A stretch of DNA of 32,253 nt from Bacteroidales bacterium (GTDB lineage: Bacteria > Bacteroidota > Bacteroidia > Bacteroidales > F082). The stretch spans positions 3,580-35,832 of the forward strand of contig JAOZOO010000021.1 of the NCBI GenBank assembly GCA_029933225.1. The letters are read 5' to 3'. Shown one piece after another: positions 6,396-24,280 of this stretch; position 1 is the first letter of the stretch, and every line of letters starts with the position of its first letter. The translations under genes were made by a program, and so were the position numbers. The notes below the pieces were generated by a model, which did not search any database, was not told the origin of the DNA, and worked only from the letters and a program-made list of their open reading frames with translations.

Positions 6396-8714
6396 TTACA
6401 GTTCAAGAAAGATCAGTTTCTTTTCGGTTAGCAAGTTTCTTTTCCGGTAAATCCGAACCAAAACCATACCTGAGTAGGCATCTGTTTTGCGTCGTTTCCA
6501 GGTATTTTGTTTACCGTTTAACGTAAACTTATCCAACACTTTACCCTGCATATCATAAAATACAATGCTGTATTTCCCTTTTTCCGAAAATTCAAAATTA
6601 ATCTGGTCTGTCACAGGATTGGGAAATATTGAAACCTGTTCCTGACCCGGGACGGTGGGGATGCCGACAATATATTTATCCCAGACGGCCAGTGTATATT
6701 CTCCCGGGGTCAGATGATCAACAACAATATACCCAAAGTTCCATGTCCCGACTCTGATCTGGGGTATTTCATGCCAGTCATCCCCGGCAGTTTCCCTGTA
6801 CAATATCACGACTGAATCTTTTGGTGAAACGATGAGATCATCATCAAGGTAGCCCATATTGTCGTAATAAAACTTTCCTGTGGCATCCAGACTTTCAGGA
6901 AATATACCTTCGATTTTCCAGTAACGGTAAGGCGACAATGTCAACCCTTCCACCGGGCTTTTCAGACTGTCGGGAGCAACCCAGTTGTGGACCACCCTGA
7001 CCATTGCCGAATCCGAAAGTTGCTGGATGACCAGTGTAAAATAGGTGTCGGGGAAGTCATATTCCAGAGGGTTGGTAAAAATCCGGTAATTATCTGTGGT
7101 GGCATCGTTTATTTTCTCAAAAAGATCAAGACATACTGTTTTTGGAGTAAAGCTGATATGCTTAACGGAATGTCCTGTTTTTCCTGAAAAATGAACAGTA
7201 TCAGTGACCATGTTAAAATATTCATCCACAAAAGTGACCTCCAGAACATTGTCATTGGCCAGGTAGTCAGCCCCTTTGTATTTTTGTTTCAGCCAGATAT
7301 CTACTTTATATCCATCACCTTCTGCAGTTGCTTTTGTTGAATCAATTGAAAACTGCGGCGTTCCGGGTGTAAACACCCAGGCGTCGAAAAAGCCGGTCAT
7401 ATCAATGCCGGTGGTATCCGACAGAAAGTCGCACATGTCCTCCGAAGAAACAGACTGAAAAGCAAAATGATTGAGATAAGCCGTCATGGCCGGGAAAAAG
7501 ATGGAATCGCCAAGATAACCACGCAAAGTATTGGTCACGGTGGCTCCTTTTTCGTAAGCATGACTACCATAAGTGATGGTTTGTGGCAGATTATTCAGGG
7601 CATAATAGCCGCCGTCAACGATGTGCGTCTTCCGCAACATTTCACGGTGTTTGTGCCGCATGGTGGTTAAAAAATTATTGTGACTGTAAATTCCTTCCCG
7701 GTAATACACTTCACAAAACGAGGCCCATCCTTCATTGAGCCACATATCTTCGGCAGTAGAACAGGTCACTTTGTCTCCAAACCACATGTGTGAGAGCTCG
7801 TGGGTGTAAAGCGATTCATAATTTGTATTGCCATTGATGGCAAAGTGTGGATAAAAGATATTGGCAGCATGCTCCATCGCGCCGATGGCCGTTCCGGTAT
7901 ATCCAACCCGTTCAAAAGGGTAAGGTCCGAACTTTTCTTCAAAAAACTGAAGAATGTCTTTTAGGTTTACAAACGAGCCTTTTACCCTGCCCGTATCAGA
8001 GGGTTTTGTGTAAATCGTAATTGGTACCGTATCCTGCATTCCCTCGAATTCATCGTCGAAAAGGCTGTATTTTCCCACAGCCACCGAGGCGAGGTAGGTC
8101 GGAATGGGATGCGATTCGTACCAGTGCCAGGTATGCGTTCCGTCACCGTTATCGGCAATGCCCGCCAATGACCCGCCGCCTGTTACTTTTTTACTGGTAT
8201 CCACCGTTACATAAAGGTCGTAAGTTGCCCTGTCGGTAAAATCATCCACACACGGAAACCAGGCTTTACCCAGATTATGCGGAATGGAAACAAAACCGAC
8301 ACCGAGGTTAAATGCATAGTCGCCCGAAAAATGAAATCCTCCCCAGCTTTCGTGAAAGGGCTGCCCGTGATAATAAACCGTAAGCGATAACGTATCATTC
8401 TCACCGACCGGAGAATCAAGATGTGTGCGGACAACCTCATCCTGATGGGTAAATGTGTTTGAGGACTGCCCGACAAATACGGAATCAACCGTCAGCTTTT
8501 TCAACTCAAGCGGAACATAATCCAGATCATTCACCAAAGGTGTCAGCTCAACCTCCGTAAAGCCGGTAATGGTTTTGTCAGCCGTATTCACATCCGTCAG
8601 GTGAATGGAATAATGAATGACATGAATGGTATCGCCGATACCGGGATCATAAGATTGTGCCTGTAAAAACGAAACCAGATTGAGAAAGGTAAAAGCCAAT
8701 AAAAAATAATTCAT
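6396..8714 (-). CDS. Secreted M1-family zinc aminopeptidase with T9SS sorting domain
   Basis: A 772-residue exported metallopeptidase. A signal peptide covers about residues 1-20. The substrate-binding GAMEH motif is at 278-282. The zinc site is H305-E-L-S-H309, followed by E328 in the LNEGWASF segment (HExxHx18E). The first ~230 residues form the M1 N-terminal beta domain. After the catalytic domain there is a beta-rich extension and then a T9SS type-A sorting domain (about 695-772, starting at VSIFPNPVTDQINF). It therefore should trim N-terminal residues from peptides at the cell surface or outside. A good promoter lies at 8737-8766, and no other gene appears to be in the operon. Family assignment is secure; peptide preference is unknown. 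Confidence 0.93.
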   Translation of the reverse strand: MNYFLLAFTFLNLVSFLQAQSYDPGIGDTIHVIHYSIHLTDVNTADKTITGFTEVELTPLVNDLDYVPLELKKLTVDSVFVGQSSNTFTHQDEVVRTHLDSPVGENDTLSLTVYYHGQPFHESWGGFHFSGDYAFNLGVGFVSIPHNLGKAWFPCVDDFTDRATYDLYVTVDTSKKVTGGGSLAGIADNGDGTHTWHWYESHPIPTYLASVAVGKYSLFDDEFEGMQDTVPITIYTKPSDTGRVKGSFVNLKDILQFFEEKFGPYPFERVGYTGTAIGAMEHAANIFYPHFAINGNTNYESLYTHELSHMWFGDKVTCSTAEDMWLNEGWASFCEVYYREGIYSHNNFLTTMRHKHREMLRKTHIVDGGYYALNNLPQTITYGSHAYEKGATVTNTLRGYLGDSIFFPAMTAYLNHFAFQSVSSEDMCDFLSDTTGIDMTGFFDAWVFTPGTPQFSIDSTKATAEGDGYKVDIWLKQKYKGADYLANDNVLEVTFVDEYFNMVTDTVHFSGKTGHSVKHISFTPKTVCLDLFEKINDATTDNYRIFTNPLEYDFPDTYFTLVIQQLSDSAMVRVVHNWVAPDSLKSPVEGLTLSPYRYWKIEGIFPESLDATGKFYYDNMGYLDDDLIVSPKDSVVILYRETAGDDWHEIPQIRVGTWNFGYIVVDHLTPGEYTLAVWDKYIVGIPTVPGQEQVSIFPNPVTDQINFEFSEKGKYSIVFYDMQGKVLDKFTLNGKQNTWKRRKTDAYSGMVLVRIYRKRNLLTEKKLIFLEL

Positions 8715-11907: not shown

Positions 11908-12549
11908 TTAACATCCCCCCGAAGCTACTTTCGGTTTCTTTTTGCGGCGGACAACTACCGGTTTTTTATTCGCGACCTTTTGTGTATTGTCCACAGAACC
12001 AACGCTTTTAGCCACTTCGGCAAAGTCATATCTGGGCTCGCCTCTCAGGTAGCTGATGTCTTCAACGGTTTGTTCCAGCGCATCTTTGTGAGCAGCATAA
12101 TATTCGTATCCGCCGAGCAGTATCTTTACATTGTCGAAGCCCACCTGCCTGAACCACATCCACGGGCCATTGGCCTGAAGCTGGTCGTTCCCGTATAGTA
12201 CTACAGTCATCTCTTTGTCTTGCAACTCTTTCAGATGTTTTATGTTTTTCGGTTCACTCAGGTCGTAAGCCGAGATATTTTCCGCACCGGGAATGTGTCC
12301 CTGTCCGTAAGAAAACCTGTCGCGAATGTCGATGAAAACAACATTGTTGGTTTTTTTGCCGAGTACATCAGCCAGTTCAAAAGGATGAAAACCCGCTTCA
12401 TAATCATGTGCAAGTTCTACGGTTTGTTCGAGGGAGAGTTTATATTTAAAACGGGGTTTCTTCAGTGTGAGAAAACCGACAATGATAATCAACACAAAAA
12501 TGATTACTGTTACCAATGTTTTCCTGGGATTTAATTCATGAACATGCAT
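11908..12549 (-). CDS. Membrane-anchored rhodanese-like protein with C-terminal Gly-Gly-Cys tail (second copy)
   Basis: A 213-residue protein with an N-terminal membrane anchor (about 11-28) and a rhodanese-like domain (about 45-155: VVFIDIRDRFSYGQGHIPGAENI is the classic first half). The active-site loop, usually CxxG-like after 'VVY', reads VVLYGNDQL (116-124) and contains no Cys. The only cysteine in the whole protein is the last residue, C213. It closes a basic tail KKPVVVRRKKKPKVASGGC that is almost the same as in the neighbouring paralogue. N-in topology would put the domain and tail in the periplasm (inference). It is the last gene of the island, 52 nt after its paralogue and followed by a terminator. 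A role in passing sulfane sulfur, like the periplasmic Sud rhodanese of Wolinella, is possible, but the catalytic Cys would have moved to the tail. Standard rhodanese catalysis is unlikely. Confidence 0.82.
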   Translation of the reverse strand: MHVHELNPRKTLVTVIIFVLIIIVGFLTLKKPRFKYKLSLEQTVELAHDYEAGFHPFELADVLGKKTNNVVFIDIRDRFSYGQGHIPGAENISAYDLSEPKNIKHLKELQDKEMTVVLYGNDQLQANGPWMWFRQVGFDNVKILLGGYEYYAAHKDALEQTVEDISYLRGEPRYDFAEVAKSVGSVDNTQKVANKKPVVVRRKKKPKVASGGC

Positions 12550-12601
12550 CTTTTTATTTTTTTAACCGTTTTCAAAATAAAATATTCTTGATAGCTGTAT
12601 A

Positions 12602-13213
12602 TCAACAACCTCCTGCCGCTACTTTTTGTTTTTTCTTGCGCCTAACTGCTACTTTTTTCTTTTTTACAACAGAGTTATCCACCTTGGCACCTGTAAAATA
12701 CATCTGGGCTCCTTTTCTGAATTGATACAGTTCAAAGGCCGTATAAGGTGCATCTTCCGGTGGTTCTTTGGGTTGAATGATGGTTTCTATCCAGCAGTTA
12801 AGGCCTCCTTTCATCACATAAGTCTCATTTATTCCCATGCGTCGGGTGATCACCCATGCCTGATCGGCCAGGATGTCATCATTGGAATAAAACACCACTT
12901 TGGTTCCGGGAATACCGAAATAATCCTGGTAATTTGGAGACAGCAGGCTGTCGAAAGGAATATTTATCGCGTTGTTCAGCGAGAAATGGTCATAAGACGC
13001 TGCACTCCTGACATCCACCAGTTCCAGAGTAGGGTCTTTGTCAATAATAAATCGTGCAACCTGATCGGTAGTAACATACCGCGTGGGCTGGATGATGTCA
13101 TAAAGCAACTTCTCCGGTTTAATTTGTTCGTATTCCGGTTCCCGATTCAGGAAAAAAGTTCCGGCTGCCAGGACCAACATCAAAACGGTCAAGAAGAAAT
13201 AATTCCTGTTCAT
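12602..13213 (-). CDS. Membrane-anchored rhodanese-like protein with C-terminal Gly-Gly-Cys tail (first copy)
   Basis: A 203-residue paralogue of the protein at 11908-12549. Residues 5-22 form a single membrane anchor, and the rhodanese-like domain spans about 48-145 (LELVDVRSAASYDHFSLNNAINIPF). The active-site loop is VVFYSNDDI (106-114), without Cys. C140 sits late in the domain (GGLNCW), and the only other Cys is the C-terminal residue, C203, at the end of KKKVAVRRKKKQKVAAGGC. The tails of the two paralogues agree at most positions while the domains have diverged clearly, and the Gly-Gly-Cys codons differ (GGT GGA... versus other third bases), so the tail is kept at protein level. It starts 4 nt after the YedE-like gene. 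Whether the tail carries persulfide, binds a partner or is modified cannot be told. Confidence 0.82.
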   Translation of the reverse strand: MNRNYFFLTVLMLVLAAGTFFLNREPEYEQIKPEKLLYDIIQPTRYVTTDQVARFIIDKDPTLELVDVRSAASYDHFSLNNAINIPFDSLLSPNYQDYFGIPGTKVVFYSNDDILADQAWVITRRMGINETYVMKGGLNCWIETIIQPKEPPEDAPYTAFELYQFRKGAQMYFTGAKVDNSVVKKKKVAVRRKKKQKVAAGGC

Positions 13214-13217
13214 CGTT

Positions 13218-13820
13218 TTAGAATTTATATTCTTTAATATTTTTTCTTACTCTTTTTTCAATAAGCATGGTGATCCAGAAGGAGGCAAGGGCAATTACCG
13301 TAAAGGCAAAGGCGAACCACGCTGCCGGAATGCCGGTTACATCTGACAGGGTAACATTTCCGAGATAGCCACTGTAATAAAAGTCTTCAAACAACGGGAA
13401 AGCTTCGGAGAAAATAAAAATGCCAACAAACAAACCGACGGTAAATAACAATGCATCCATCTTCCCGATGGCAATGGCCGTGTAGCTTGTGCCCGGACAA
13501 AAGCCGCCAAGCACAAATCCAAATCCCATGATCACCGAGCCAACGATCATCGGTCCCAGATATGTGGGCAGGATGAATATTTTATCCAGGTCAAGCCATC
13601 CGAAATAATCAAAATATAGAAAACCGACCATAGCGACAATGACGGCCGTGAAGAAAACACGCAAAACCACAAAGTTGTATCCGTAAAACACGCCTGCGAT
13701 ATTACGCGAGGAGGAGAATCCGGAGGCCTCGAGGATAAATCCAAAGGCAATACCAAGAAGCAGGGCTATAACAAAGTCCCAGTTGCCTGTGATGATTCCG
13801 TTAGGTATTAATGGTCCCAT
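13218..13820 (-). CDS. YeeE/YedE half-transporter (sulfur-compound import), subunit B
   Basis: A 200-residue membrane protein with about five hydrophobic helices. Family hallmarks are visible: an EASGFSSSRNIAGVFY segment (31-46) and the pore-type GFVLGGFCPGTSYTA with Cys108. YeeE/YedE proteins such as TsuA import thiosulfate through conserved cysteines (established for the family). At 200 residues this is half of the usual ~350-residue single-chain protein, and the gene just upstream supplies the other half, so the two probably form one heteromeric pore. It lies between the partner subunit (21-nt gap) and the Cys-tailed rhodanese-like gene (4-nt gap), which ties transport to the sulfur carrier. 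Confidence 0.88.
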   Translation of the reverse strand: MGPLIPNGIITGNWDFVIALLLGIAFGFILEASGFSSSRNIAGVFYGYNFVVLRVFFTAVIVAMVGFLYFDYFGWLDLDKIFILPTYLGPMIVGSVIMGFGFVLGGFCPGTSYTAIAIGKMDALLFTVGLFVGIFIFSEAFPLFEDFYYSGYLGNVTLSDVTGIPAAWFAFAFTVIALASFWITMLIEKRVRKNIKEYKF

Positions 13821-13841: not shown

Positions 13842-14381
13842 TTAAATCCATAATTTCTTAAAAAACCAGGCAATGGCATAGCCCGTACCGAACAGCGCGA
13901 GCATGACGATCACTCCTCCGAGTGAAAAAGTAGCGCTACCGGCCAGCGCCGCACCGCTGGAACATCCGCGCCCGAACTGGCTTCCGATCCCGAAAAGGAT
14001 GCCCCCGATCAGGGCGGCGATCAAACGGGTTTTACTGGTGATCTTCGGTGATTTTTCCACCCACGGTTTTTTCACTCTTCCGAAAAGAATACCCGATAAC
14101 AATCCGCCGAAGAATATGCCCATTGATTCAAAAACCAGCCATGTGTACATGGGTGAGTGATCATCGCTGATGAATTTGCTGATATACGGATTGCTTTCCG
14201 CACTTTTCGGTGCAACGACGTCAACAGTTGTGACCACCGCACTTTTTACCGCACCACTGGCTCCCAGTCCCCTTCCGGTAATATAAACCGTCAGAATGAC
14301 CAGCAGGCCGAGAAGTACACCTCCGAGGTAAGGGTTTATATAGTGAGGCCTGTTATTGGTTACTGTGTTTTTTTCCATCAT
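13842..14381 (-). CDS. YeeE/YedE half-transporter (sulfur-compound import), subunit A
   Basis: A 179-residue membrane protein with about four or five hydrophobic helices and a hydrophilic loop at about 45-80. The pore motif QFGRGCSSGAALAG has Cys140, and a second Gly-rich motif, TGRGLGASGAV (35-45), lacks the Cys found in some family members at that site. It is the N-terminal-half counterpart of the adjacent subunit. Its start is 15 nt after the stop of the NrfD gene, so it is in the same transcript as psrABC. The substrate is most likely thiosulfate or another sulfane-sulfur compound; selenium or other roles known for YedE relatives cannot be excluded. Confidence 0.87.
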   Translation of the reverse strand: MMEKNTVTNNRPHYINPYLGGVLLGLLVILTVYITGRGLGASGAVKSAVVTTVDVVAPKSAESNPYISKFISDDHSPMYTWLVFESMGIFFGGLLSGILFGRVKKPWVEKSPKITSKTRLIAALIGGILFGIGSQFGRGCSSGAALAGSATFSLGGVIVMLALFGTGYAIAWFFKKLWI

Positions 14382-14396
14382 TTTATATATTTAAGA

Positions 14397-15338
14397 TCAA
14401 TATAAAAATCGTGTAATTTGTCCGGCTTCAACCATCACAAAGCGGAATACGAGACCGCCAAACAGTATCAGGAACGGCGGAACCCAGGCGGGGACATGAT
14501 AACCGCGTAATTCAAGGGCTTCAAGGGTGGCAGGAAATGCCAGTCCGAGGATAACAACAAATACCCAGAAAGTTACGGTAAATTCTCCGCCGAGGAAAAG
14601 TGCAGCCGCTTCGGTCTGAACCGCCGAGCTGGCCAGGAATCCCATAAACAGGTGAATGATCAAAAACAGCTCCACCAGGATAAGTATCAGGTCAATCCGG
14701 CTCAACAGCTTCCTCTCGTTTTTATCTTTTGATATCCAGATGATGGTAGCCAGACCGGTTGAAAGCCCGGAAGTAAGAAACAAGGGGCCGAGGATGGAGG
14801 TATTCCACAGGGGCCTGGCATTGAAAGCCGATAACAGGATTCCGGTGTAAACACCGAGAATAATTGACAATGCCATCATGATCCAGGCAAAAGGAACACG
14901 TACTTTGATGATCCATGCCTCAAATTTGTTTAATATTTCAAACTTCCAGTCCCAGTTCGGAAACATCTCTTTCATGTAGCTGGCCACCCAGATAAATGAC
15001 ATAGGTGTGATCAGCATCAGCGTCCAGGCTCCCCACGACATGGGTGAAGTAATTCGCACTGTAGTATATAGGCGCCAGAAATAAAGCTGGTGTTTCAAAT
15101 CCAAAAACAAAGCCCCCAAGCCGAGAACCAGGGCAAAGGGTGCAATGATCGGCGCCCATTTTACTGTATAAGGCATTTGTTTTTCTTTATCGGTAACTAC
15201 ATAATAGCTGGCAAAAAACAAAATACCGGCCGCAAGACCTCCCAGAAAAAGATACAACGGTATCTGCCAATGCCAGACATGAAGATAGGGGTCTATGTTG
15301 GGAATATTCCGGCCGCTAACAAATAATTCTTCTTTCAT
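14397..15338 (-). CDS. psrC: NrfD/PsrC-type membrane subunit of polysulfide/thiosulfate reductase
   Basis: A 313-residue integral membrane protein with about eight hydrophobic helices. It has the NrfD/PsrC character: a short cytoplasmic start (MKEELFVSGRNIPNIDPYLHVWHWQIPLYLFLGGLAAG), conserved small-residue helices (YLFLGGLAAGILFFASY) and a final Glu in helix 8 (FVMVEAGQITRFLY). This subunit exchanges electrons with menaquinone and anchors the PsrB and PsrA subunits. It contains no heme ligands of the NarI type that I can identify. It is 17 nt downstream of psrB. The NrfD family also serves tetrathionate, arsenate and DMSO reductases, so the substrate comes from the catalytic subunit and the context rather than from this gene. 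Confidence 0.9.
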   Translation of the reverse strand: MKEELFVSGRNIPNIDPYLHVWHWQIPLYLFLGGLAAGILFFASYYVVTDKEKQMPYTVKWAPIIAPFALVLGLGALFLDLKHQLYFWRLYTTVRITSPMSWGAWTLMLITPMSFIWVASYMKEMFPNWDWKFEILNKFEAWIIKVRVPFAWIMMALSIILGVYTGILLSAFNARPLWNTSILGPLFLTSGLSTGLATIIWISKDKNERKLLSRIDLILILVELFLIIHLFMGFLASSAVQTEAAALFLGGEFTVTFWVFVVILGLAFPATLEALELRGYHVPAWVPPFLILFGGLVFRFVMVEAGQITRFLY

Positions 15339-15355: not shown

Positions 15356-15889
15356 TTAAATAAGAAAATACAATTGAGGTTTGGTTCCGGCTTCGGGAGC
15401 AAGCACCTTCCAGTTTCTGTTTTTCAAAGCTTTGGACACATCGCTGTTGGGGTCATCCAGGTCGCCGAAATGCAGGCAATGCGTGGGACAAACATCCACA
15501 CAGGCCGGATTCTGACCTTTGTCAACGCGATGTTTACAGAATGTACATTTGTCAACATAACCTTCAGGATGCGAGTACCGTGCGTCGTAAGGACACGACT
15601 CGATACAGGCGCCACAACCGATACATTCGTTGTGTGTAACCATCACAATGCCACCCTCGACAATGTGGCTGGCGCCCGTGGGGCAACAGCGGACACAGGG
15701 TGCATTGTCACAGTGATTACATCTTTCTGAACGCAACTCGATCTGAACATTGGGGTAGCTTCCGCTAACGGTTTCCACGATCCAGTCACGGCAATATCCA
15801 TGAGGAACATTGTTTTCTGTCTGACAGGCAACCACACAGTCGCCACAACCCACACATTTGGCGGTATCTATTGCCATAGCATATCTCAT
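15356..15889 (-). CDS. psrB: Four-cluster ferredoxin subunit (PsrB type)
   Basis: A 177-residue electron-transfer subunit. Four [4Fe-4S] motifs are visible: CVGCGDC...C (12-22), CNHCDNAPCVRCCP, CIGCGACIESCP and CTFCKHRVDKGQNPACVDVCP. That is the DMSO-reductase-family beta-subunit pattern, with the typical long spacing in the fourth motif. It passes electrons between the quinone-site subunit and the molybdenum subunit. It has no signal peptide, as expected for a protein exported as a hitch-hiker with Tat substrate PsrA. Its ATG overlaps the psrA stop by 4 nt, and a clear Shine-Dalgarno (GGAGG, 8 nt before the ATG) lies inside the end of psrA. A ~180-residue length is normal for PsrB/TtrB. Confidence 0.93.
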   Translation of the reverse strand: MRYAMAIDTAKCVGCGDCVVACQTENNVPHGYCRDWIVETVSGSYPNVQIELRSERCNHCDNAPCVRCCPTGASHIVEGGIVMVTHNECIGCGACIESCPYDARYSHPEGYVDKCTFCKHRVDKGQNPACVDVCPTHCLHFGDLDDPNSDVSKALKNRNWKVLAPEAGTKPQLYFLI

Positions 15890-18150
15890 GATTCAACCTC
15901 CTCTCTGTTATTTCCTGGTTTTTCTTTTAAAAAGGTAACAAAATTGCTTCGCATTCCTGTTCCGCCCATAACGGGATCCAGATAGACTTTTGAAACCAAT
16001 TCCGAGTCACTGGCTCCGCGTCCGTATGCTCTTCTTAACTTTTTATCGGTATGGCCAAATCCATGTACCATATATACTGAATCCCAGCGGATTCTTTCGG
16101 TAACCCTCACTTTTATTGGGAAAGAGGAAACAATGCCGTCCTGGTTTTTCAGCCAGACATACTGACCGTTTTTAATTTCCCATAAGTCAGCCACTTTCGG
16201 GTTAACCCAAACACTGTTTTCGTTCATCAAATCCCACAGGTTGTGATTGTTTGATGTACGGCTGAATGTATGCATGGGGGCCCGGCCGTAATTGAGGCGA
16301 TAGTAGCCCTCCGGTGGTTCGGGATGACGTGTATAATTGGGTAAAGGATCGAAACCTTCCATTTCCAACTCTGTGGAGTAAAGTTCGATTTTACCTGTAT
16401 TGGTATTGAATTCAAAATCTTCTAAATTTTCCAGATTATATAAATCATCGTATTCACGCGGGTATTTCTTAACACCCACACGTTTCATTTCGTCCAGGGA
16501 AGAACCGATTTTCTTCAATTGCCAGTCAAGTAACTCTTCAATATTTTCCCACTGAAAATAATCCTGCAATCCCAGACGGTTGGCCAGTTGTTTGGTAATC
16601 CACCAATTTGGTTTTGAGTCATATTTAGGCTTGGCAGCCGGCATACGCAATGCAATGACCGGCTCACGATGAGGTGATGTACGCAGGAAATCGTAACGTT
16701 CGAGATAAGTACATTCGGGTAAAACCACATCGGCATAGCCGGTTATGTCCATGGGCATAGTATCAATCACGACAAGGAAATCAAGATTATTGATGGCTGC
16801 GATTGTTTTCTTTTGATCGGGAAGTGAGGCCATCAGGTTGGTTCCGTAAACGATCCAGCCCCTCAAATGACAATCGAGATCGGGATTTGGGATAGTGGCA
16901 TCGCAAATACCCGTGGACAGGACTTCACTCACGAGTTTATATTTTCCGGGAGGATAAGCATCTTTCCACGACCTTTTGGGTTTCGGATAGGGCGGGTGCG
17001 GGTAGTTAGGCACATGAACACTCTCAGGATTGTAAAATCCCCCGCGACGTCCCCACGAACCGAGCAAAGCATTCAGAATGGCAATGGCCCTCGATCGCTG
17101 GGTGTCGTCACCATACCAGGTAACATGTCTGCCGGGATGTACCAAAACCCGCGGCGATGCGGCTGCCATTTCGCGGGCAGTACGGCGGATAATTTCCGGC
17201 TCGATGGTTGTAAGGCCGTATGCCCATTCGGGGGTCTTGTTTTTCACATGTTCTTTGAGTTCATCAAATCCAAAAGTGTATTTCTCTACATATTCTTTAT
17301 CGTACAAATTCTCATAGATTATTACATGCATCCAGGCAAGCAGCAAGGCCATATCGGTTGCCGGTTTAATGGGTAGCCAGTATTTGGAATGAGAAGCTGC
17401 TGTAGAAAAACGGGGATCAACAGTGATGATCGTGGCCCCGTTTTCAAGGGCTGCCGACATTTCCTGAATTTGCCCGTTATGCATGTTCTCACCGATATGT
17501 GAGCCGATAAGAACAAGGCATTTTGTGTCGCGGATGTCAGTACGTTCAGGTGACATAACATCTTCGCCAAAAGTAGCTGTAAAGCCTACCTCGCGCGGAC
17601 CGCGGCACTGTGCAAAAGAAGGGGCTGAAATATTGGGTGAACCATAGGCTTTTACCAGATGACTTACTAATTTTCCCCCTGTACCGTGCGAGAAAAGGGC
17701 AAGACACTCCGGACCATGTTCCTTGCGCAACTTGTCCATCTTTTCTGCAATCACGTCAAGAGCTTCGTCCCAGGATGCTTTCCTAAAATATTGAGTGCCA
17801 TCGGGTTTGGTTTCTCGGATCAGCGGATGTTTTAGCCGGTCTTCATCATAATACATGCCGATACCGCCGGTGCCCCGGGGACATAGTCGCCCATTGCAGT
17901 GCGGATCATTTTCATTTCCAATAACTTTGCGAATGTTGCCTTTTTTGTCAACATAAGTCCAGCCGGCACATTTCCAAAAACAAACTTCGCAATAGGTGGG
18001 ATATGGTGTCATCTCCTCATCACTGGCAGGAGTCTGTTCGTTTTCATCGCCCAACAGGCTGAAACCTCTCAACTTGAGCGAATGCAAACCAATGGCAGCG
18101 GCGCCGGTACCTGCTGCTGAAATTTTAATAAAATCTCGTCTTGTTTTCAT
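15886..18150 (-). CDS. psrA: Tat-exported molybdopterin oxidoreductase, PsrA/PhsA type
   Basis: A 754-residue catalytic subunit. The twin-arginine signal is KTRRDFIKISAAG (2-14) with a following hydrophobic stretch. The N-terminal [4Fe-4S] site is C54-x2-C57-x3-C61-x28-C90, followed by PRGTGG. The probable molybdenum ligand is C182 in PSFAQCRGPREVGF. A Cys ligand is shared by polysulfide/thiosulfate reductases, arsenate reductase and Nap, and argues against Ser-ligand (DMSO) or Asp-ligand (Nar) enzymes. Tat export places it outside the membrane. Neighbours (YedE pair, rhodanese-like proteins, TusA, DsrE) favour a sulfur compound: polysulfide, thiosulfate or tetrathionate. Distinguishing these, or an arsenate/sulfite role, needs phylogeny. 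It has its own promoter at 18206-18237. Confidence 0.9.
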   Translation of the reverse strand: MKTRRDFIKISAAGTGAAAIGLHSLKLRGFSLLGDENEQTPASDEEMTPYPTYCEVCFWKCAGWTYVDKKGNIRKVIGNENDPHCNGRLCPRGTGGIGMYYDEDRLKHPLIRETKPDGTQYFRKASWDEALDVIAEKMDKLRKEHGPECLALFSHGTGGKLVSHLVKAYGSPNISAPSFAQCRGPREVGFTATFGEDVMSPERTDIRDTKCLVLIGSHIGENMHNGQIQEMSAALENGATIITVDPRFSTAASHSKYWLPIKPATDMALLLAWMHVIIYENLYDKEYVEKYTFGFDELKEHVKNKTPEWAYGLTTIEPEIIRRTAREMAAASPRVLVHPGRHVTWYGDDTQRSRAIAILNALLGSWGRRGGFYNPESVHVPNYPHPPYPKPKRSWKDAYPPGKYKLVSEVLSTGICDATIPNPDLDCHLRGWIVYGTNLMASLPDQKKTIAAINNLDFLVVIDTMPMDITGYADVVLPECTYLERYDFLRTSPHREPVIALRMPAAKPKYDSKPNWWITKQLANRLGLQDYFQWENIEELLDWQLKKIGSSLDEMKRVGVKKYPREYDDLYNLENLEDFEFNTNTGKIELYSTELEMEGFDPLPNYTRHPEPPEGYYRLNYGRAPMHTFSRTSNNHNLWDLMNENSVWVNPKVADLWEIKNGQYVWLKNQDGIVSSFPIKVRVTERIRWDSVYMVHGFGHTDKKLRRAYGRGASDSELVSKVYLDPVMGGTGMRSNFVTFLKEKPGNNREEVES

Positions 18151-18581: not shown

Positions 18582-19658
18582 TTAACTTTTCTTCCCGTTT
18601 TGCTTTATGGCGGCCTGTTGCAAGGTGGCGAAATAGATGGCAAACGACCGGTACAGAAAATGAGTCCATTTTCCGAAAGGTACAATGATCAGAGCCCATT
18701 GAACCAGAATGATCAGGTGAACCAGATACAACCAAATGTTGTTTTCAAGGATATTCAGATCAACAAACAGACGTACAAAAAATGCAGATAAACCCATCAG
18801 GAATAACCAAATAACAAAGAACCAGTCGCTGGGGTGCGAATGTTTGCTTATTTCCTGGTCTTTCTGGATACGCCGGCGGATAAAGTCGAATGTGACAACA
18901 AATATGATAACACTTTCAATATATCCTAATATGATAACGAACAAACTCTGACTTGAAAACCAATCGAGAAATACGGTAGTAAATAACAGGAGCAGATATC
19001 CGAGTACAAGTACAAAGTGTTCGAACCAGCGCACCTGATTATCATCGCATCCGAGTGTGCGTTTTTGTGTGAACATATGTACCAACAGATCACTTAAGCA
19101 CCGGAAATAGGCAGATAGGGGAACTTTTACGCCGGGCTTATAGGTTGTGAGCCACCACATATGGATGATATTGGGAAGTAAAATGAATAAAAAAACTACC
19201 GAAATGGCTCCCATCTCGAAATAATGGCCGTAATGCATGATGGTTTCAAGGTGAAAACTTTCATAATATCCAAACCAGATGACAGCAACTGCCAGTAATA
19301 TAAAAGCTGAAACAGAAGCAACCAGATATTTATAAAGCAGACCCGATAAGCCGGTCCAGTCGTATTTGGCAATCAGCCATCTGCGCAACGACATCATCAG
19401 TTCTCCCGGGTCAGCTTCGCGCGGACAAGTGCTGCTGCATTCGCCACAATAGTAACAGAGCCAGGGATCAAGCGAAGCTTTGATCTCGCTATCGAGGCCA
19501 AGCACGCTGTACCGTACCATTTTCCGTGGAAAAGAATTATTTTCATCCGAGAGAGTGCAAACCGCCGTACAATTACCGCAATTATAACATGCGTTTGGAT
19601 CAAATGCACCATATTTTTTTAATTCATCCGTGAATTCAGGATTAATTCTTGCCATCAT
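18582..19658 (-). CDS. QmoC/HdrC-HdrE-like membrane iron-sulfur subunit
   Basis: A 358-residue fusion-type subunit. The N-terminal HdrC-like domain has two [4Fe-4S] motifs: C24-YN-C27-GN-C30-TAV-C34 and C68-YY-C71-GE-C74-SST-C78. From about residue 105 there are roughly six hydrophobic helices resembling HdrE/NarI-like cytochrome b, with several His in or near the helices (HYGHYFE, HMWW, WFEHFVLVLG, YLVHLIILVQW) as possible heme b ligands. This is the layout of QmoC in sulfate reducers (~380 residues), which exchanges electrons between menaquinone and cytoplasmic HdrA-like flavoproteins. It overlaps the winged-helix gene by 17 nt and ends block 1. Start alternatives are the first two Met codons. 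No Apr or Dsr partner is present in the window. Confidence 0.88.
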   Translation of the reverse strand: MMARINPEFTDELKKYGAFDPNACYNCGNCTAVCTLSDENNSFPRKMVRYSVLGLDSEIKASLDPWLCYYCGECSSTCPREADPGELMMSLRRWLIAKYDWTGLSGLLYKYLVASVSAFILLAVAVIWFGYYESFHLETIMHYGHYFEMGAISVVFLFILLPNIIHMWWLTTYKPGVKVPLSAYFRCLSDLLVHMFTQKRTLGCDDNQVRWFEHFVLVLGYLLLLFTTVFLDWFSSQSLFVIILGYIESVIIFVVTFDFIRRRIQKDQEISKHSHPSDWFFVIWLFLMGLSAFFVRLFVDLNILENNIWLYLVHLIILVQWALIIVPFGKWTHFLYRSFAIYFATLQQAAIKQNGKKS

Positions 19659-19932
19659 TCTTTATTTTATAATAAAAATACTCGTCCATGTCGTCTATTT
19701 CACCAGTTTCCACGAAACCATATTTCAGCAAACTCATCAGTTGAAACACAACTTCGTCCTTGGGTATCGCCAGTATTTCTGCAAGCTGAGGAATCGTTTT
19801 ATCACCCTCTTTCAGTGCATTTAAGATTGATTTCTTAGTCCTTGTAAAGTATTTCAACTGTTCGGTAACTTCCTTGGGAACAGGACGTTTTTCTTTAAGA
19901 TATTTTGCCGTTTTTCCTTTTTCAACATCCAT
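19642..19932 (-). CDS. Small winged-helix protein embedded in the Hdr/Qmo-like operon
   Basis: A 96-residue protein. After a basic N-terminal stretch there is a helix-turn-helix pattern: TKKSILNALKEGDKTIPQLAEILAIPKDEVVFQLMSLLKYGFVE, followed by a short wing-like, Tyr-rich end (MDEYFYYKIKN). The pattern matches MarR/ArsR-like winged-helix domains but I see no metal-binding cysteines (it has no Cys at all). It lies between the HdrA-type gene (11-nt gap) and the QmoC-like gene (17-nt overlap), so it is made in step with the complex. It could be a co-regulator or, given coupling to structural genes, an assembly or structural subunit using the fold for protein contacts. I cannot name a family. Confidence 0.75.
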   Translation of the reverse strand: MDVEKGKTAKYLKEKRPVPKEVTEQLKYFTRTKKSILNALKEGDKTIPQLAEILAIPKDEVVFQLMSLLKYGFVETGEIDDMDEYFYYKIKNDGKN

Positions 19933-19943
19933 GATAAATAATA

Positions 19944-21878
19944 TTAAACAGTGGGTATTAAAGCATCAATCATACTTTCCACGTCTTCATCGGTCAGACC
20001 GATAAGATCAAGTGCATTCACAGGGCATACAGGCAGGCACATGCCACAACCTTTGCAAACAGCAGCATTTACTCTGGCCACGAATTTTCCATCTTTTTCA
20101 ATTTTATCAAAGGCGCTGTAAGGACAGGCTTCTTCACATTTTCCACACCAATCACAACTTTGTTCGTCAACTTTGGCAACGGTCGGCTCCAAAGCCAGTT
20201 CACCGGAAGCCACCAGTTCGAATGATTTTGTGGCAGCAGCTAATGCCGAGTTCATGGATTCCATAATGTTTTTTGGTCCCTGGCTGGCCCCGGAAATAGT
20301 TACCCCGTCAATAACGGTTTCGACAGGCCTCAGTTTCATGTGGATTTCATTGAAAAAATTATCCCTTCCTTTGGGAATTTTCAGAAGGTTAGCAATTGAG
20401 TTATCCTTTCGGGGAACCATGCCGGTGACAAGCACCACCAGATCAGCAACGACTTCCAACTCTTTGTTTGTAGTAAGAATATCTTTGATCCTGACAAAGG
20501 TCTGGTCCCCTCTTTTTTCTATTACAGGCGGGTCATGTTCGAAAGATTGCAAATAAATATCACCGAGTCGTGATGATTCGTCATACCATATCTCCGCTTT
20601 GCCGTAAGTTCGGATTCCTCTGTTAAAATGAAAGTTGTGAATGTTTTTATATTTTTTCTTTACGGTAATGGCTGTGTGAATATTGGCCGTGCAACAATAG
20701 CGTGAGCAATATTTATTTTCCCCGTCCACCTGGCGGCTGCCGACACAATAAATGTAAGCGATGTTTTTAATTTCTTTTCCTTTATAAATAAGTTTATCAT
20801 CGCAATAGTGTACAATCCTTTTAAACTGTGGAAACGTAACTACATTCTCTATCTCACCATATCCGAATTCTCCGTGTTTCGGTTCGTAAGGATCAAATCC
20901 GGTAGCCAGCAAAATGGATCCTACTTTCAAATTAAGGTATTCGGTCTTCTGACTGAAATCAATGCTGTTACACACTTTTTCACACTCGCCGCACCGTGTG
21001 CAATTTTTCATGTCGATGGCCGGCAATTGTGGATACTCGCTGGGATAGTTGTGGTAAATAGCTTTTCGGGTAGTGATATTAAAGTTAAATTCATCGGGCA
21101 CTTCAACCGGGCATACATCAATGGCTTTTTGTAATTCATTACTGATGCAATTGAGTTTAAAATGCCGGGGTGTTACTTTTACTTTAAGTGTGAAATTACC
21201 AACACTGCCTTTGTTCTCAACCACTTCTGCCCCTGTAAAGAGGGTTACGTGTTTATGTTTCATTACTTCATCGTACAGGCGCGTAATCAATTCTTTTCCG
21301 GTTTCTTCGGTGATACACAGATCATCCCACTGAGCCACACGTCCTCCTACAAAGAATTCGCGTTCAATGAGGTAAACATCAGCTCCGGCTTCGGCCAGTT
21401 CGATGGCAGCACGCATGCCTGCCACACCGGCACCAATCACTGCCACGGCATTTGTAGCTTTTACTTTTATCGGTTCCAGAGATTCGGCATTCCGTACCTT
21501 TGCAATGGCTGCCTTAACAATCTGAATGGCTTTTTGAGTGGCCCCTTCTTTGTTGTCGGAATGTGCCCAGGAAACCTGTTCGCGGATATTGGCATGTACA
21601 TAGTTATATTTGTTAAGTCCGGCACGTTCGGTAACGGCCCTGAAAGTCAGCAGATGTAGTTTTGGAGAACAGGATGCGACAACTACACTATCTAATTTTT
21701 CATTTTCAATATCCTCCACCATTTCTTTTTGGTTGGAATCGGCACAGGCGAACATGGTGGTTTTGGCCAGAAATACGCCTTCGTCATGTTCTATAGATTG
21801 ACGCACCTTTTCCACGTCCACATAATCGGAGATGTTTCCTCCGCAATGGCAGATATATACTCCTATTTTTTGTTTCAT
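19944..21878 (-). CDS. HdrA-type iron-sulfur flavoprotein (QmoB-like), partly degenerate
   Basis: A 644-residue cytoplasmic flavoprotein. Domains in order: the HdrA N-terminal extension (GVYICHCGGNISDYVDV, C10 and C12; ASCSPKLH); an FAD-binding motif at 148-153 (VIGAGVAGMRAA); an inserted ferredoxin region; and a C-terminal two-cluster ferredoxin (C575 onwards CDWCGKCEEACP; C608 onwards CKGCGMCLPVCP). In the inserted region the second cluster is intact (C293-TR-C296-GE-C299-EKV-C303). The first is broken: only C244 and C256 remain where CxxCxxCxxxCP is normal. The 'DCAAC' motif of HdrA is replaced by WDDLCITEETG. A strong Shine-Dalgarno (AAGGAGGG) precedes the start and there is a 4-nt overlap with the upstream flavoprotein gene. 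It probably pairs with that second HdrA-like protein as QmoB pairs with QmoA. Confidence 0.88.
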   Translation of the reverse strand: MKQKIGVYICHCGGNISDYVDVEKVRQSIEHDEGVFLAKTTMFACADSNQKEMVEDIENEKLDSVVVASCSPKLHLLTFRAVTERAGLNKYNYVHANIREQVSWAHSDNKEGATQKAIQIVKAAIAKVRNAESLEPIKVKATNAVAVIGAGVAGMRAAIELAEAGADVYLIEREFFVGGRVAQWDDLCITEETGKELITRLYDEVMKHKHVTLFTGAEVVENKGSVGNFTLKVKVTPRHFKLNCISNELQKAIDVCPVEVPDEFNFNITTRKAIYHNYPSEYPQLPAIDMKNCTRCGECEKVCNSIDFSQKTEYLNLKVGSILLATGFDPYEPKHGEFGYGEIENVVTFPQFKRIVHYCDDKLIYKGKEIKNIAYIYCVGSRQVDGENKYCSRYCCTANIHTAITVKKKYKNIHNFHFNRGIRTYGKAEIWYDESSRLGDIYLQSFEHDPPVIEKRGDQTFVRIKDILTTNKELEVVADLVVLVTGMVPRKDNSIANLLKIPKGRDNFFNEIHMKLRPVETVIDGVTISGASQGPKNIMESMNSALAAATKSFELVASGELALEPTVAKVDEQSCDWCGKCEEACPYSAFDKIEKDGKFVARVNAAVCKGCGMCLPVCPVNALDLIGLTDEDVESMIDALIPTV

Positions 21879-23185
21879 AATAATGCCCTCCTTAAATAGC
21901 TGGTTGTTTCGGCAGAGGCTGCACCTCCTGATAAAATTGAATCGGGAATATCCATTGGGCCTGAAGCGGTTCCGGCAACAAATACACCATCGATACTTGT
22001 TTTGGCCGGACTCGCCAAAATGTCCGCCTGATTGATGAAATTAAACGGGTCAAGTTCAAGTTTTTTATTTTCGAAGGCATCGGAAATACCTTGATTGGGT
22101 AATACGCCAACCGAAAGGACAACCATGTCATGTTCGGCTTCCTGTACTTTTCCCTGCTCAATATCTTCATACCTCAGGATCAGGTTTCCGTTTTCTTTCT
22201 CAGTGATCTTTCCTACTTTTCCTTTGACAAATTCAACGCCCATATCCTGGGCCTGGGCATAAAACTCATTGAATCCTTTTCCAAATGCACGTATATGCAA
22301 ATAATAAATGGTGATATCAGCCATCGGCAAGGCCCCCATTAGTAGTTGCGCCTGTTTAACAGAATACATGCAGCAGATTTGTGAGCAAATAGGATTTCCT
22401 AATGATTTATCCCGCGATCCGGTACACAAGACATAAGCAATGTTATCCGGCATTTTGCCATCACCTGGACGCAGGATTGTGTTGTATGGACGTGTGGGAG
22501 CCAACTGGCGTTCCATTTGCATGGAAGTGATCACATTTTTAAAAGTTCCATAACCATAGCGTGGAATTTTTAAAGGATCGAACAAATCAAATCCGGTAGC
22601 TACAACAATTGATTTTATGGTAACCAGAAACTCTTCTTCAGTCTGGGTAAAATCAATGCATTGGGTTGGGCAAACCCGTTCACAAGCACCGCATAAAGTA
22701 CAGTTTTCAATATCAATGGCGGCAGCCCTGGGACTGGCAATACTGAATGGAATGTAAACAGCTTTCCGCCCGACAAGCCCGTACTGATACTGATCAGATA
22801 CACTAACCGGACAAGCCTGTTCACATAACTGACACCCTGTACAATCCGTGACATTTACGTAGCGCGGCTTTTGTAAAACGATTGCTTCAAAATGATGTTC
22901 TTCAATTTTTGTGATCTTCCGTGTTTCTGCACCGGTAAAGATGGTGATATTCGGATGACGGGCAATTTCAGATATTTTTGGGGTTGTGATACATGCTGCA
23001 CAATCAAGTGTTGGAAATACTTTACTGAGCATGATCATCTTTCCTCCTATGGAAAGTTCCTTTTCTACCAGCAATACTTTATAATTCAGGTTAGCCAGAT
23101 TTAGCGCGGCTTCACCTCCTGCAATACCACCGCCGATCACCAGAACATCAAACTCCAATGACTTCATTTGTTCAGACATACTCAT
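21875..23185 (-). CDS. HdrA-type iron-sulfur flavoprotein (QmoA-like)
   Basis: A 436-residue flavoprotein of the HdrA family, shorter than HdrA (~650) and close to QmoA in length. Features: an N-terminal FAD motif (LVIGGGIAGGEAALNLA, 15-31); the HdrA-specific FPTLDCAACITTPK with C62 and C65; two complete [4Fe-4S] motifs (C115, C118, C121, C125 and C162, C165, C168, C172); and the CTGSRDKSLGNPICSQICCMYSVKQA block typical of HdrA/Qmo. Unlike its partner downstream, all inserted-domain cysteines are present. It begins on the last base of the MvhD-like gene stop and ends overlapping the next flavoprotein gene by 4 nt. The role is cytoplasmic electron transfer between an iron-sulfur/quinone subunit and an unknown redox partner. 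Flavin-based bifurcation is possible but not shown. Confidence 0.88.
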   Translation of the reverse strand: MSMSEQMKSLEFDVLVIGGGIAGGEAALNLANLNYKVLLVEKELSIGGKMIMLSKVFPTLDCAACITTPKISEIARHPNITIFTGAETRKITKIEEHHFEAIVLQKPRYVNVTDCTGCQLCEQACPVSVSDQYQYGLVGRKAVYIPFSIASPRAAAIDIENCTLCGACERVCPTQCIDFTQTEEEFLVTIKSIVVATGFDLFDPLKIPRYGYGTFKNVITSMQMERQLAPTRPYNTILRPGDGKMPDNIAYVLCTGSRDKSLGNPICSQICCMYSVKQAQLLMGALPMADITIYYLHIRAFGKGFNEFYAQAQDMGVEFVKGKVGKITEKENGNLILRYEDIEQGKVQEAEHDMVVLSVGVLPNQGISDAFENKKLELDPFNFINQADILASPAKTSIDGVFVAGTASGPMDIPDSILSGGAASAETTSYLRRALL

Positions 23186-23592
23186 TAATTTGAGGATTGA
23201 CTTAAATACTGTGAAAAGCTTTTCACGTGCTTTACAAACGCTTCGCTACAAACCGAACATATTGCTGCCATTTTTAATCTCGCCGTATCCAATCCTTTTT
23301 CTTTCATCATTTCCATGGTACGGCTGACTAATTCTCCGGTTTTCTCAGTACAGGACTCACCATACGGGCAGTCGGTACCATCGGCAGCGATAAAAACCCC
23401 ATCGAAACCCTGTTCCAATGCATGTAAGATCCATTTTGGTTTTATTGCACTGGAACAGGGGACGGGTATAGTGTAAACAGTTGGTGGGTAATGTAACTTT
23501 AACAAGCCCGCCATATCAATGGCCGGATCAGAGATTTTTTCAGTGGAAAAAACCAATATGTTCGGACCATGATTTACTTTGCCACTAGCCAT
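23185..23592 (-). CDS. Free-standing MvhD-like protein lacking the N-terminal Cys cluster
   Basis: A 135-residue protein that follows the MvhD/FlpD (hydrogenase delta-subunit) pattern. It keeps the DMAGLLKLHYPPTVYTIPVPCSS segment (C46), GFDGVFIAADGTDCPYGESC (C75, C81) and a C-terminal helix. MvhD proteins carry a [2Fe-2S] cluster and hand electrons to HdrA; in QmoB the domain is fused at the C-terminus. Here the domain is separate. The CC-x2-C cluster near the N-terminus is gone (FSTEKISDPAIDMAG in its place), and the later GCHxGDCHY is changed to AADGTDCPYGES. Two extra Cys occur at 112 and 115 (ICSVC). It lies 1 nt after tusA and touches the QmoA-like start. It may no longer bind the usual cluster, and might instead be a docking or sulfur-handling subunit. 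Confidence 0.78.
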   Translation of the reverse strand: MASGKVNHGPNILVFSTEKISDPAIDMAGLLKLHYPPTVYTIPVPCSSAIKPKWILHALEQGFDGVFIAADGTDCPYGESCTEKTGELVSRTMEMMKEKGLDTARLKMAAICSVCSEAFVKHVKSFSQYLSQSSN

Positions 23593-23593
23593 T

Positions 23594-23842
23594 TTATTTT
23601 CTTAATAAGATCCTGAAAAATCCTGATTCTTCAATGGTTCCGAGGTATTCAAATCCTTTCTTGTTACACCATTTCGGGATGTCACGTTTTGTGCCTTCAT
23701 CGGCTGACAGGACTTCCATCACTTGTCCTTTTTCAATTTGACCAATAGCTTTCTTGGCAGCCAATAAGGGTCCGGGGCAGGAAGTCCCTCGTGCATCAAT
23801 AGTTTTGTCCACTTTGATCTCTTGTAATTCTTCCGCTGTCAT
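23594..23842 (-). CDS. tusA: TusA-family sulfur carrier
   Basis: An 82-residue protein with the complete TusA signature: DARGTSCPGPLLAAKKAI, in which C22 of CPGP carries the persulfide. The length and the beta-alpha-beta-alpha-beta-beta layout are typical. In tRNA thiolation TusA is a relay. In dissimilatory sulfur clusters TusA with DsrE proteins transfers sulfane sulfur to or from Hdr-like or Dsr enzymes (established knowledge), and the neighbours here favour that role. It has one more Cys (WCNKKG, C58) outside the motif. It lies 18 nt after the DsrE-like gene and 1 nt before the MvhD-like gene, so it is translated in the same operon. Confidence 0.92.
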   Translation of the reverse strand: MTAEELQEIKVDKTIDARGTSCPGPLLAAKKAIGQIEKGQVMEVLSADEGTKRDIPKWCNKKGFEYLGTIEESGFFRILLRK

Positions 23843-23860
23843 GATAATGAATTGTTAAGG

Positions 23861-24280
23861 TTAAATAAACAGGTTAATGTCAGCCTCTTCGGCTGAAGCC
23901 ATATATTCACCGATACCACAAATATCATCGGCGAGGTCGATAAAGTCATCCAGTTTTTCACCATGCCATACTTTGCCTGCAAATCCGCAGATATGGATCT
24001 TTACATTGGTCATTTCTTTGGCCTGGCGAAAAGCTTCAGTCCAGTGTGGGGTGTTCAGACGTTCCAGCGAAGCCAGAAATTCGTCTTTTTTATCGGTGAT
24101 CTCTGCCACACGGTCATTGACCATCGCATTTTCTTTTTTAAATGCAAAAGCAGCTTGTAACAGGACAAAGATTTCCACATCCATGTCCTCGGCGGCAGCG
24201 CCACCCAGAATTACACCGGCAGCCGTGAGTTTGTCCACGCTTCCGGAAAATAATGCTAATGTTAATTTTTTGTTTGCCAT
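23861..24280 (-). CDS. DsrE-family protein, first gene of the sulfur island
   Basis: A 139-residue protein of the DsrE/DsrF-like fold: an alternating beta/alpha pattern beginning KLTLALFSGSVDKLTAAGVILGGAAAEDMDVEIFVLL. Two cysteines are well placed: C98 in VKIHICGFAGKVW and C121 in DDICGIGEYM. In DsrE-type sulfurtransferases the Cys after the third or fourth strand accepts persulfide, and C98 is the better candidate. It begins the operon with a full Shine-Dalgarno (AGGAGG, 4 nt before the ATG) and a strong promoter 47 nt upstream. With TusA next to it, a sulfur relay is likely. It is a single-domain DsrE-like protein, not a DsrEFH trio. Confidence 0.85.
   Translation of the reverse strand: MANKKLTLALFSGSVDKLTAAGVILGGAAAEDMDVEIFVLLQAAFAFKKENAMVNDRVAEITDKKDEFLASLERLNTPHWTEAFRQAKEMTNVKIHICGFAGKVWHGEKLDDFIDLADDICGIGEYMASAEEADINLFI

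Follow-up and report, generated by a model that had tools for sequence, protein, structure and literature searches.

We describe here two rhodanese-fold genes, rhdB and rhdA, in the window, by which we mean the whole 32,253-nucleotide stretch of a Bacteroidales contig that was analysed. They stand at the end of an operon that reads, in transcription order, psrA-like molybdoenzyme, psrB-like, nrfD/psrC-like, YeeE_N, YeeE_C, rhdB and rhdA (Table 1). The molybdopterin, 4Fe-4S and NrfD subunits lie in a row and so meet the criterion for a Psr/Phs system, and the two PF04143 halves, each with a conserved Cys, meet that for a split YeeE/YedE (Sulf_transp) protein. The best NCBIfam match of the PsrA/PhsA-like protein is PhsA at 465.6 bits, and because this misses the equivalog cut-off of 694 the substrate of the Psr/Phs-like enzyme is left open; its TAT_signal match, at 21.8 bits, is also under the cut-off (22.7). 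Psr-like genes of Bacteroidia and Marinimicrobia were already known (PMC8359478). Further upstream on the same strand are genes for HdrA-like proteins, a FlpD-like protein, TusA and a DsrE-like protein, whose products plausibly handle sulfur in the cytoplasm. Although the window has all three families of the YTD cluster of sulfur disproportionation (YedE, TusA and DsrE), we do not claim membership, because the complete cluster is described only in Desulfobacterota and Nitrospirota (PMC12998232).

Table 1. Features of the rhd operon, in positions of the window.
Feature	Position	Strand	Remarks
RhdA, 213-aa membrane-anchored rhodanese-fold protein without loop Cys, GGC end	11908..12549	-	
RhdA tail KKPVVVRRKKKPKVASGGC	11911..11967	-	G211, G212, C213 and K205 invariant in 26 sequences
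RhdA active-site loop VVLYGNDQL, Gly at catalytic-Cys position	12178..12204	-	
RhdB, 203-aa membrane-anchored rhodanese-fold protein without loop Cys, GGC end	12602..13213	-	
RhdB tail KKKVAVRRKKKQKVAAGGC	12605..12661	-	G201, G202, C203 and K195 invariant in 25 sequences
RhdB active-site loop VVFYSNDDI, Ser at catalytic-Cys position	12872..12898	-	
YeeE_C, YedE2-like sulfur-pore half	13218..13820	-	Pfam PF04143; invariant C108 in GGFCPGT, 120/120 relatives
YeeE_N, YedE1-like sulfur-pore half	13842..14381	-	Pfam PF04143; invariant C140 in GRGCSSG, 121/121 relatives
NrfD/PsrC-like quinol-side membrane subunit	14397..15338	-	PF03916
PsrB-like 4Fe-4S subunit	15356..15889	-	PF13247
PsrA/PhsA-like molybdopterin enzyme, Tat-like start	15886..18150	-	PF00384

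Both proteins match the Pfam Rhodanese family (PF00581), with E values of 1.1e-16 for RhdA and 8.7e-13 for RhdB and scores of 61.6 and 49 bits against a cut-off of 22.2. At E 0.001 Pfam returns nothing besides Rhodanese for either of them, and specifically no SoxY domain (PF13501) and no DsrC match. The predicted RhdB fold matches rhodaneses in the PDB (3gk5, TM 0.82 by target), which make up most of its listed matches, and there is a weak profile match (E 9e-4) to 1qxn. Neither protein meets the rhodanese criterion of a catalytic Cys at the start of the loop, and an earlier sequence-only reading, which had pointed out the Cys-less loops VVLYGNDQL and VVFYSNDDI and the two 19-residue tails, holds exactly as quoted, as does its statement that the terminal Cys is the only one in the 213-residue protein; RhdB has two, the extra one in GGLNCW. 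The AlphaFold models begin with a single helix (residues 8-30 of RhdA and 3-21 of RhdB) followed by a globular domain, and pLDDT falls below 50 at residues 184-197 and 210-213 of RhdA and 177-203 of RhdB. We take this low-confidence basic arm to be disordered.

The Cys-tipped end is strictly conserved in RhdB. Among 158 RhdB sequences read from Bacteroidota and a second phylum, which we take to be Candidatus Neomarinimicrobiota (the phylum of genome G685, locus L039), all 158 keep a terminal or penultimate Cys: 123 end in GGC, 20 in GGC plus one residue (e.g. GGCG, GGCS), 14 in xGC and one in GSC, with EGC being the form of xGC in the 13 that had been classed in an earlier subset. The residue at the catalytic position is Ser in 126, Gly in 15, Ala in 13, Thr in one and Cys in two, so that the loop Cys is absent from 155 of the 157 readable loops; loop and tail Cys occur together only in L155 and L159. 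The one unreadable loop is cut off by a contig end. It had been stated beforehand that homologues mostly lacking the GGC end or retaining a loop Cys would speak against the design, and for RhdB that outcome is refuted. A quick tree of 157 RhdB domains requires at least 14 changes of ending class and at least four of fusion status, and we conclude that the ending itself varies in form whereas its Cys persists.

These counts cover fetched loci only and not every matching genome. Searched with RhdA, the window's own genome yields only RhdA and RhdB, and PF00581 gives nine domain hits in it altogether. Matches were found in 126 of 295 genomes of the order (RhdA, E 1e-3), 76 of 395 of the phylum (RhdB profile, 1e-8) and 36 of 199 of the second phylum (1e-10). 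The order sample consisted of 30 loci (29 from genome contigs) and then 60 regions from 60 matching genomes, partly overlapping; the phylum sample of 30 loci, one of them the window's own, and then 20 regions; and the second-phylum sample of 20 listed loci and then 21 regions. Only exact duplicates with the same last 130 residues were removed from the 158, so near copies remain, and ORFs matching under 60 bits were left out. Profile A1 includes the tail columns and could slightly favour tailed relatives; many hits aligned only to about position 171-190, yet they are tailed too.

Several observations bear on whether the ending is selected as protein. Among the tailed ORFs with a GGC end, 179 in number, 108 encode the Cys by TGT and 71 by TGC, and every one of the 16 possible Gly-Gly codon pairs is present, which shows that the end is conserved at the protein level, as the sequence-only reading had proposed. 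It had based this on third-base differences in the Gly-Gly-Cys codons of the two window copies, which is only partly correct: the Gly codons differ (GGG GGA versus GGA GGT) and the Cys codon is TGT in both. A frameshift or chance tail is excluded by the codon variation and by the Cys of all 158 RhdB. Selenocysteine in place of the tail Cys was also considered, and the sole in-frame TGA among the listed homologues (L006) stops the protein before the tail, although this search was not systematic. The fetched loci hold 939 non-redundant non-rhodanese ORFs of 150 aa or longer; two have Cys as last residue, and none has an end of the form [GE]GC, with or without one extra residue. An even sample of 400 kb from the one-contig relative G428 holds 335 ORFs of 100 aa or longer; one ends in Cys, and none has a GC or GC-plus-one end. 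In these samples, that is the neighbourhoods and about one tenth of one genome, the tail is a feature of rhodaneses only, and these zero counts likewise rule out a chance origin.

The pattern is looser in RhdA, and only RhdB has the arm strictly. The RhdA profile is the best match for 89 ORFs; the tail is present on 80 of these, including SseA-like rhodaneses of L048, L049, L050, L053 and L122, and missing from nine, namely four RhdA (L006, L097, L108 and L120) and five other rhodaneses. The loop Cys is present in five RhdA (L085, L087, L093, L097 and L098), and L097 is among the tail-less ones, so the conservation checks that RhdB passes are met less strictly here. The third gene in many loci encodes an envelope double rhodanese, examples of which keep Cys in both loops; a tail is present on 15 of the 23 ORFs that best match the double-rhodanese profile (one of the 23, in L046, is a single-domain protein) and missing from eight. 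This third tailed protein was at first guessed to be YeeE and proved to be the double rhodanese, the true YeeE fusions being found separately. The window's genome also encodes a secreted SseA-like rhodanese with an active-type loop (L122) that ends in GSGGGC, and the tail is absent in the 10 relatives read beside it (24 loci made).

The tails of the two paralogues match within a locus. In the 67 loci with one RhdA and one RhdB (L039 and L040 share one genome), the 14 residues before GGC have on average 8.21 identities between partners from the same locus and 3.97 between loci, and the maximum over 10,000 permutations of the pairing is 4.79. The domains of the 67 pairs are only 26% identical, and thus the earlier statement that the tails are more alike than the domains holds generally (8.2 of 14 residues). 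Matched to the nearest other locus, at a mean RhdB-domain identity of 65%, the tails share 5.97 residues, and the own pair is better in 45 cases, equal in 12 and worse in 10, so the matching reflects shared descent in part but not wholly. Recent gene conversion was considered and rejected, because codon agreement at identical residues is hardly higher in tails (342 of 750) than in domains (1047 of 2486); from per-residue domain rates 284 of 683 would be expected in the tails and 299 are observed. Odd endings can be common to a whole three-protein set (EVEGGCG in L091, VQGGCS in L098), and a residue after the Cys is shared among the rhodaneses of L091, L093, L098, L102 and L120; such a residue stands on only one member of the pair in L064 and L073, and those of L097 are not the same. 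The within-locus matching is most simply explained by a shared partner that reads the tails.

The association of RhdB with sulfur genes is confirmed, and the strongest is with the YeeE pore. A same-strand YeeE is present in 129 of 130 RhdB loci with flanks, a set that excludes the short-flank loci (L001-L031, L121-L159 and L182-L208) and L181. The redox enzyme varies, with psr genes in 109 of the 130, an octaheme cytochrome in 16 and neither in six; both are present in one locus, L102. Five of the six enzyme-less loci (L077, L099, L108, L216 and L222) lie within about 1.4 kb of the upstream contig end, and the other, L086, has RhdB and YeeE without psr or octaheme genes although it is away from a contig end. 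In L171 RhdB occurs with psr and there is no YeeE within the 9 kb read, which begins at the contig end. The octaheme protein matches PDB 1sp3 (E 3.6e-122), which we take to be the Shewanella octaheme tetrathionate reductase. YeeE_C::RhdB fusions, with RhdB as the C-terminal part, occur in 14 of the 130 loci, each of which carries the octaheme cytochrome and lacks psr; no fusion of RhdB to Psr was seen. Because the pore and the armed rhodanese are constant while the enzymes vary, we regard them as a fixed core with an exchangeable redox enzyme. One studied YedE1E2 pair is reported to move zero-valent sulfur inward, with one conserved Cys per half (Cys104 and Cys101) being essential, and yedE1E2 genes are associated with rhodanese genes in general (PMC10812762); we note that the window's C140 and C108 were not aligned to these residues.

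The compartment of RhdA and RhdB is inferred. With six Lys/Arg against two Asp/Glu, the last loop of YeeE_C (residues 188-200) is assigned to the cytoplasm under the positive-inside rule. In the fusions L101 and L166 the corresponding loop is also basic (6 versus 2 and 5 versus 1) and is followed by the RhdB helix, so that the rhodanese domain and tail would be outside; in L161 and L119 the loop before the helix is not basic (3 versus 3 and 3 versus 4) and the rule is silent. Judged by eye, tail-bearing sister proteins of L024, L025, L026 and L031 have a lipoprotein-type start and the tailed L122 rhodanese has a secretion signal. Both flanks of the RhdA membrane helix are basic, and its topology is ambiguous. 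We infer a periplasmic location from the rule as applied to YeeE_C and some of the fusions, together with the starts of the sister proteins.

On balance we lean towards a model in which RhdA and RhdB are SoxY-like carriers of the envelope, each with a swinging-arm Cys mounted on a catalytically dead rhodanese and serving YeeE. Each would be held to the inner membrane by its one N-terminal helix, and the rhodanese domain, no longer performing chemistry, would be a docking or anion-binding platform. The reactive thiol would sit in the Gly-Gly-Cys tip of a flexible basic arm of about 30 residues, which may accept sulfane sulfur from donors in the envelope (the Psr-like or octaheme enzyme, active rhodaneses or polysulfide) and present it at the entrance of the two-piece YeeE/YedE pore; the two conserved Cys of the pore would then pass it on to the cytoplasm. 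Persulfide loading, the import direction, and the donor and acceptor roles are all inferred, and there is no biochemistry. The sequence-only reading had proposed a membrane-tethered carrier with its Cys moved to a swinging arm, which is supported apart from sulfur loading, itself an inference, and it had left the client as either the YedE pore or PsrA. We favor YeeE, because RhdB is fused to it and occurs without psr beside the octaheme cytochrome.

Comparison with known systems favors SoxY as the closest model. SoxY binds its sulfur substrate through the Cys of a GGCGG sequence at the C-terminus (PMC6067878), a GGC motif has been used to accept SoxY sequences (PMC11237559), and divergent soxY genes lie near octaheme tetrathionate reductase and YeeE/D genes (PMC6067878, PMC11237559). 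The RhdA/RhdB family meets the SoxY feature of a Gly-flanked C-terminal Cys on a flexible arm and would, like SoxY, carry sulfur in the envelope on a Gly-rich swinging arm, but it differs in its rhodanese fold, membrane anchor and long basic arm, and in that the Cys is usually the very last residue. The carrier reading does not explain why the tail is so strongly basic. Passage of sulfur from the SoxY Cys into a YeeE-type pore and along its Cys has been called conceivable, with direct Cys-to-Cys transfer doubted (PMC11582611). A search for SoxY in 40 RhdB genomes, 36 of them with completeness of 90% or more and contamination of 5% or less, came up empty in 39; the single match, in G010, shows that the search was able to detect it.

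The models named earlier, DsrC/TusE and Sud, are weaker than SoxY, which had not been named. DsrC carries a reactive Cys on a mobile arm, and DsrC/TusE and LbpA are cytoplasmic proteins of unrelated folds. LbpA has a Cys near its C-terminus that often neighbours Gly (PMC6067878). All of these resemble the window proteins in having the reactive group on a mobile arm, but RhdA and RhdB lack a DsrC match and have the rhodanese fold instead. Sud, a periplasmic rhodanese-fold protein thought to feed Psr, binds polysulfide sulfur on its loop Cys and is not known to have a membrane helix or a GGC arm; in both window proteins the loop Cys is gone, and they fail the Sud-type criterion. The YeeE halves belong to the same family as YedE1E2, PmpAB, SoxT and TsuA and have one invariant Cys each, but the texts consulted describe no member that is joined to, or supplied by, a rhodanese whose Cys is C-terminal. 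In the open-access literature searched, subscription papers being outside the scope, we found neither a rhodanese with a GGC arm at its C-terminus nor its fusion to YeeE described, and to that extent the earlier remark that no described family with this design was known stands.

There are several alternatives to consider. It remains possible that the arm mainly serves the redox enzyme, either PsrA or the octaheme cytochrome, with the YeeE pore being a separate module. There is precedent in that Sud is thought to present sulfur to Psr in Wolinella and that SoxY presents it to SoxCD, and this view gains from the psr genes in 109 of the 130 RhdB loci, from L171 with its RhdB and psr and no YeeE, and from the weak profile match to 1qxn, which we take to be the Wolinella polysulfide-sulfur transferase Sud. 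However, 14 of the 130 RhdB are fused to YeeE and none was seen fused to Psr, and RhdB stays with YeeE where the octaheme cytochrome replaces Psr. An alternative already raised by the sequence-only reading, which we retain as a rival but regard as unlikely, is that the basic GGC tail is a tag, to which a lipid or a disulfide bond is added or which a processing or sorting enzyme recognises, and that it keeps the proteins together in one complex without carrying sulfur. The tails of different rhodaneses in one locus do share letters as if one partner reads them, and the residue after the Cys is shared in the five loci listed above. Against this, a general sorting tag should recur, and no tailed non-rhodanese ORF was found among the 939 or the 335 sampled, a check limited to neighbourhoods and about one tenth of one genome; where the Cys of the tail is retained, that of the loop has been lost; and the residue after the Cys is not shared in L064, L073 and L097.

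Least probable, and in our view very unlikely, is a role in gating or regulating the pore, in which a metal or polysulfide is bound or sensed by the Lys-rich arm and its terminal Cys and no sulfur is transferred. The presence of one Cys on a flexible arm attached to a pore subunit in the fusions is compatible with such a role, but the tail has only this Cys, without a conserved His or a further Cys beside it, which makes it a poor site for a metal, and the partner enzymes are sulfur redox enzymes.

Returning to the carrier model, its interest is that a rhodanese seems to have shifted its reactive Cys out of the catalytic loop and onto a swinging arm. As far as the open-access literature searched allows, this fold had not been known to serve as a swinging-arm carrier of sulfur, and sulfur carriage is inferred here. 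The authors of the SoxT study point out that the passage of sulfur from periplasmic reactions to the cytoplasm is poorly understood (PMC11582611), and a Cys-tipped arm encoded beside, and sometimes fused to, a YeeE-type pore makes that question testable by single-residue mutants. The RhdB family also offers a marker for sulfur handling in bacteria where SoxY is not found.

A bolder reading, which we offer tentatively and regard as less likely than not, is that Bacteroidota, the second phylum and possibly Gemmatimonadota run their own envelope protein-carrier sulfur pathway separate from Sox, in which sulfur would remain covalently on GGC arms while the Psr-like or octaheme enzyme acts and would then be unloaded into the YeeE pore. 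If true, this would be an independently evolved rhodanese-fold counterpart of SoxYZ, with transporter and carrier as its fixed core and with redox enzymes that can be exchanged. The inclusion of Gemmatimonadota rests on a plasmid search for RhdB that gave one distant match, in Gemmatirosa, a single case that lies outside all of the counts above. There the YeeE halves are followed by an RhdB with the loop VLYSEGG and the end RRRGC, a possible hint of the same design in another phylum.

In RhdA, a rhodanese-fold protein that lacks the loop Cys, nearly all positions of the N-terminal MHVHELNP, which includes two His, are invariant (n=26 sequences). A secreted SseA-like rhodanese encoded elsewhere in the same genome (locus L122) ends in a GSGGGC tail that is absent from all ten of the relatives read, and it is possible that this protein represents a natural transplant of the tail. 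Its gene lies next to one for Porin_O_P and one for a regulator that was classed by eye as Crp-like.

The gene row upstream of the psr operon likely constitutes a cytoplasmic set for sulfur trafficking, and in addition to two HdrA-like proteins it includes a 4Fe-4S membrane protein, an ArsR-like regulator, FlpD, TusA, and a DsrE-like protein.

Features located in the window and in locus L122 of the same genome
Feature	Location	Strand	Basis or context
Peptidase M1 with Por secretion C-terminal sorting domain	window 6396-8714	-	Pfam
RhdA N-terminus, MHVHELNP	window 12526-12549	-	
Gene row upstream of psr operon	window 18582-24280	-	
HdrA-like protein	window 19944-21878	-	in upstream row
HdrA-like protein	window 21875-23185	-	in upstream row
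Secreted SseA-like rhodanese, GSGGGC tail	L122 1420-2319		window's own genome

At loci L160-L169 and L226, an octaheme cytochrome (1sp3-like) and a cytochrome b replace psrABC ahead of the YeeE::RhdB fusion, in genomes of other Bacteroidota and one from a second phylum, which is called Candidatus Neomarinimicrobiota on the strength of a record title only. L039 and L040 are two 7-kb contigs from a genome labelled Neomarinimicrobiota, and their copies are far nearer to those of the window than is a third copy in that genome (on contig C50); binning contamination is the likely origin of both contigs. The Por sorting domain on the window Peptidase M1 is consistent with a Bacteroidota origin.
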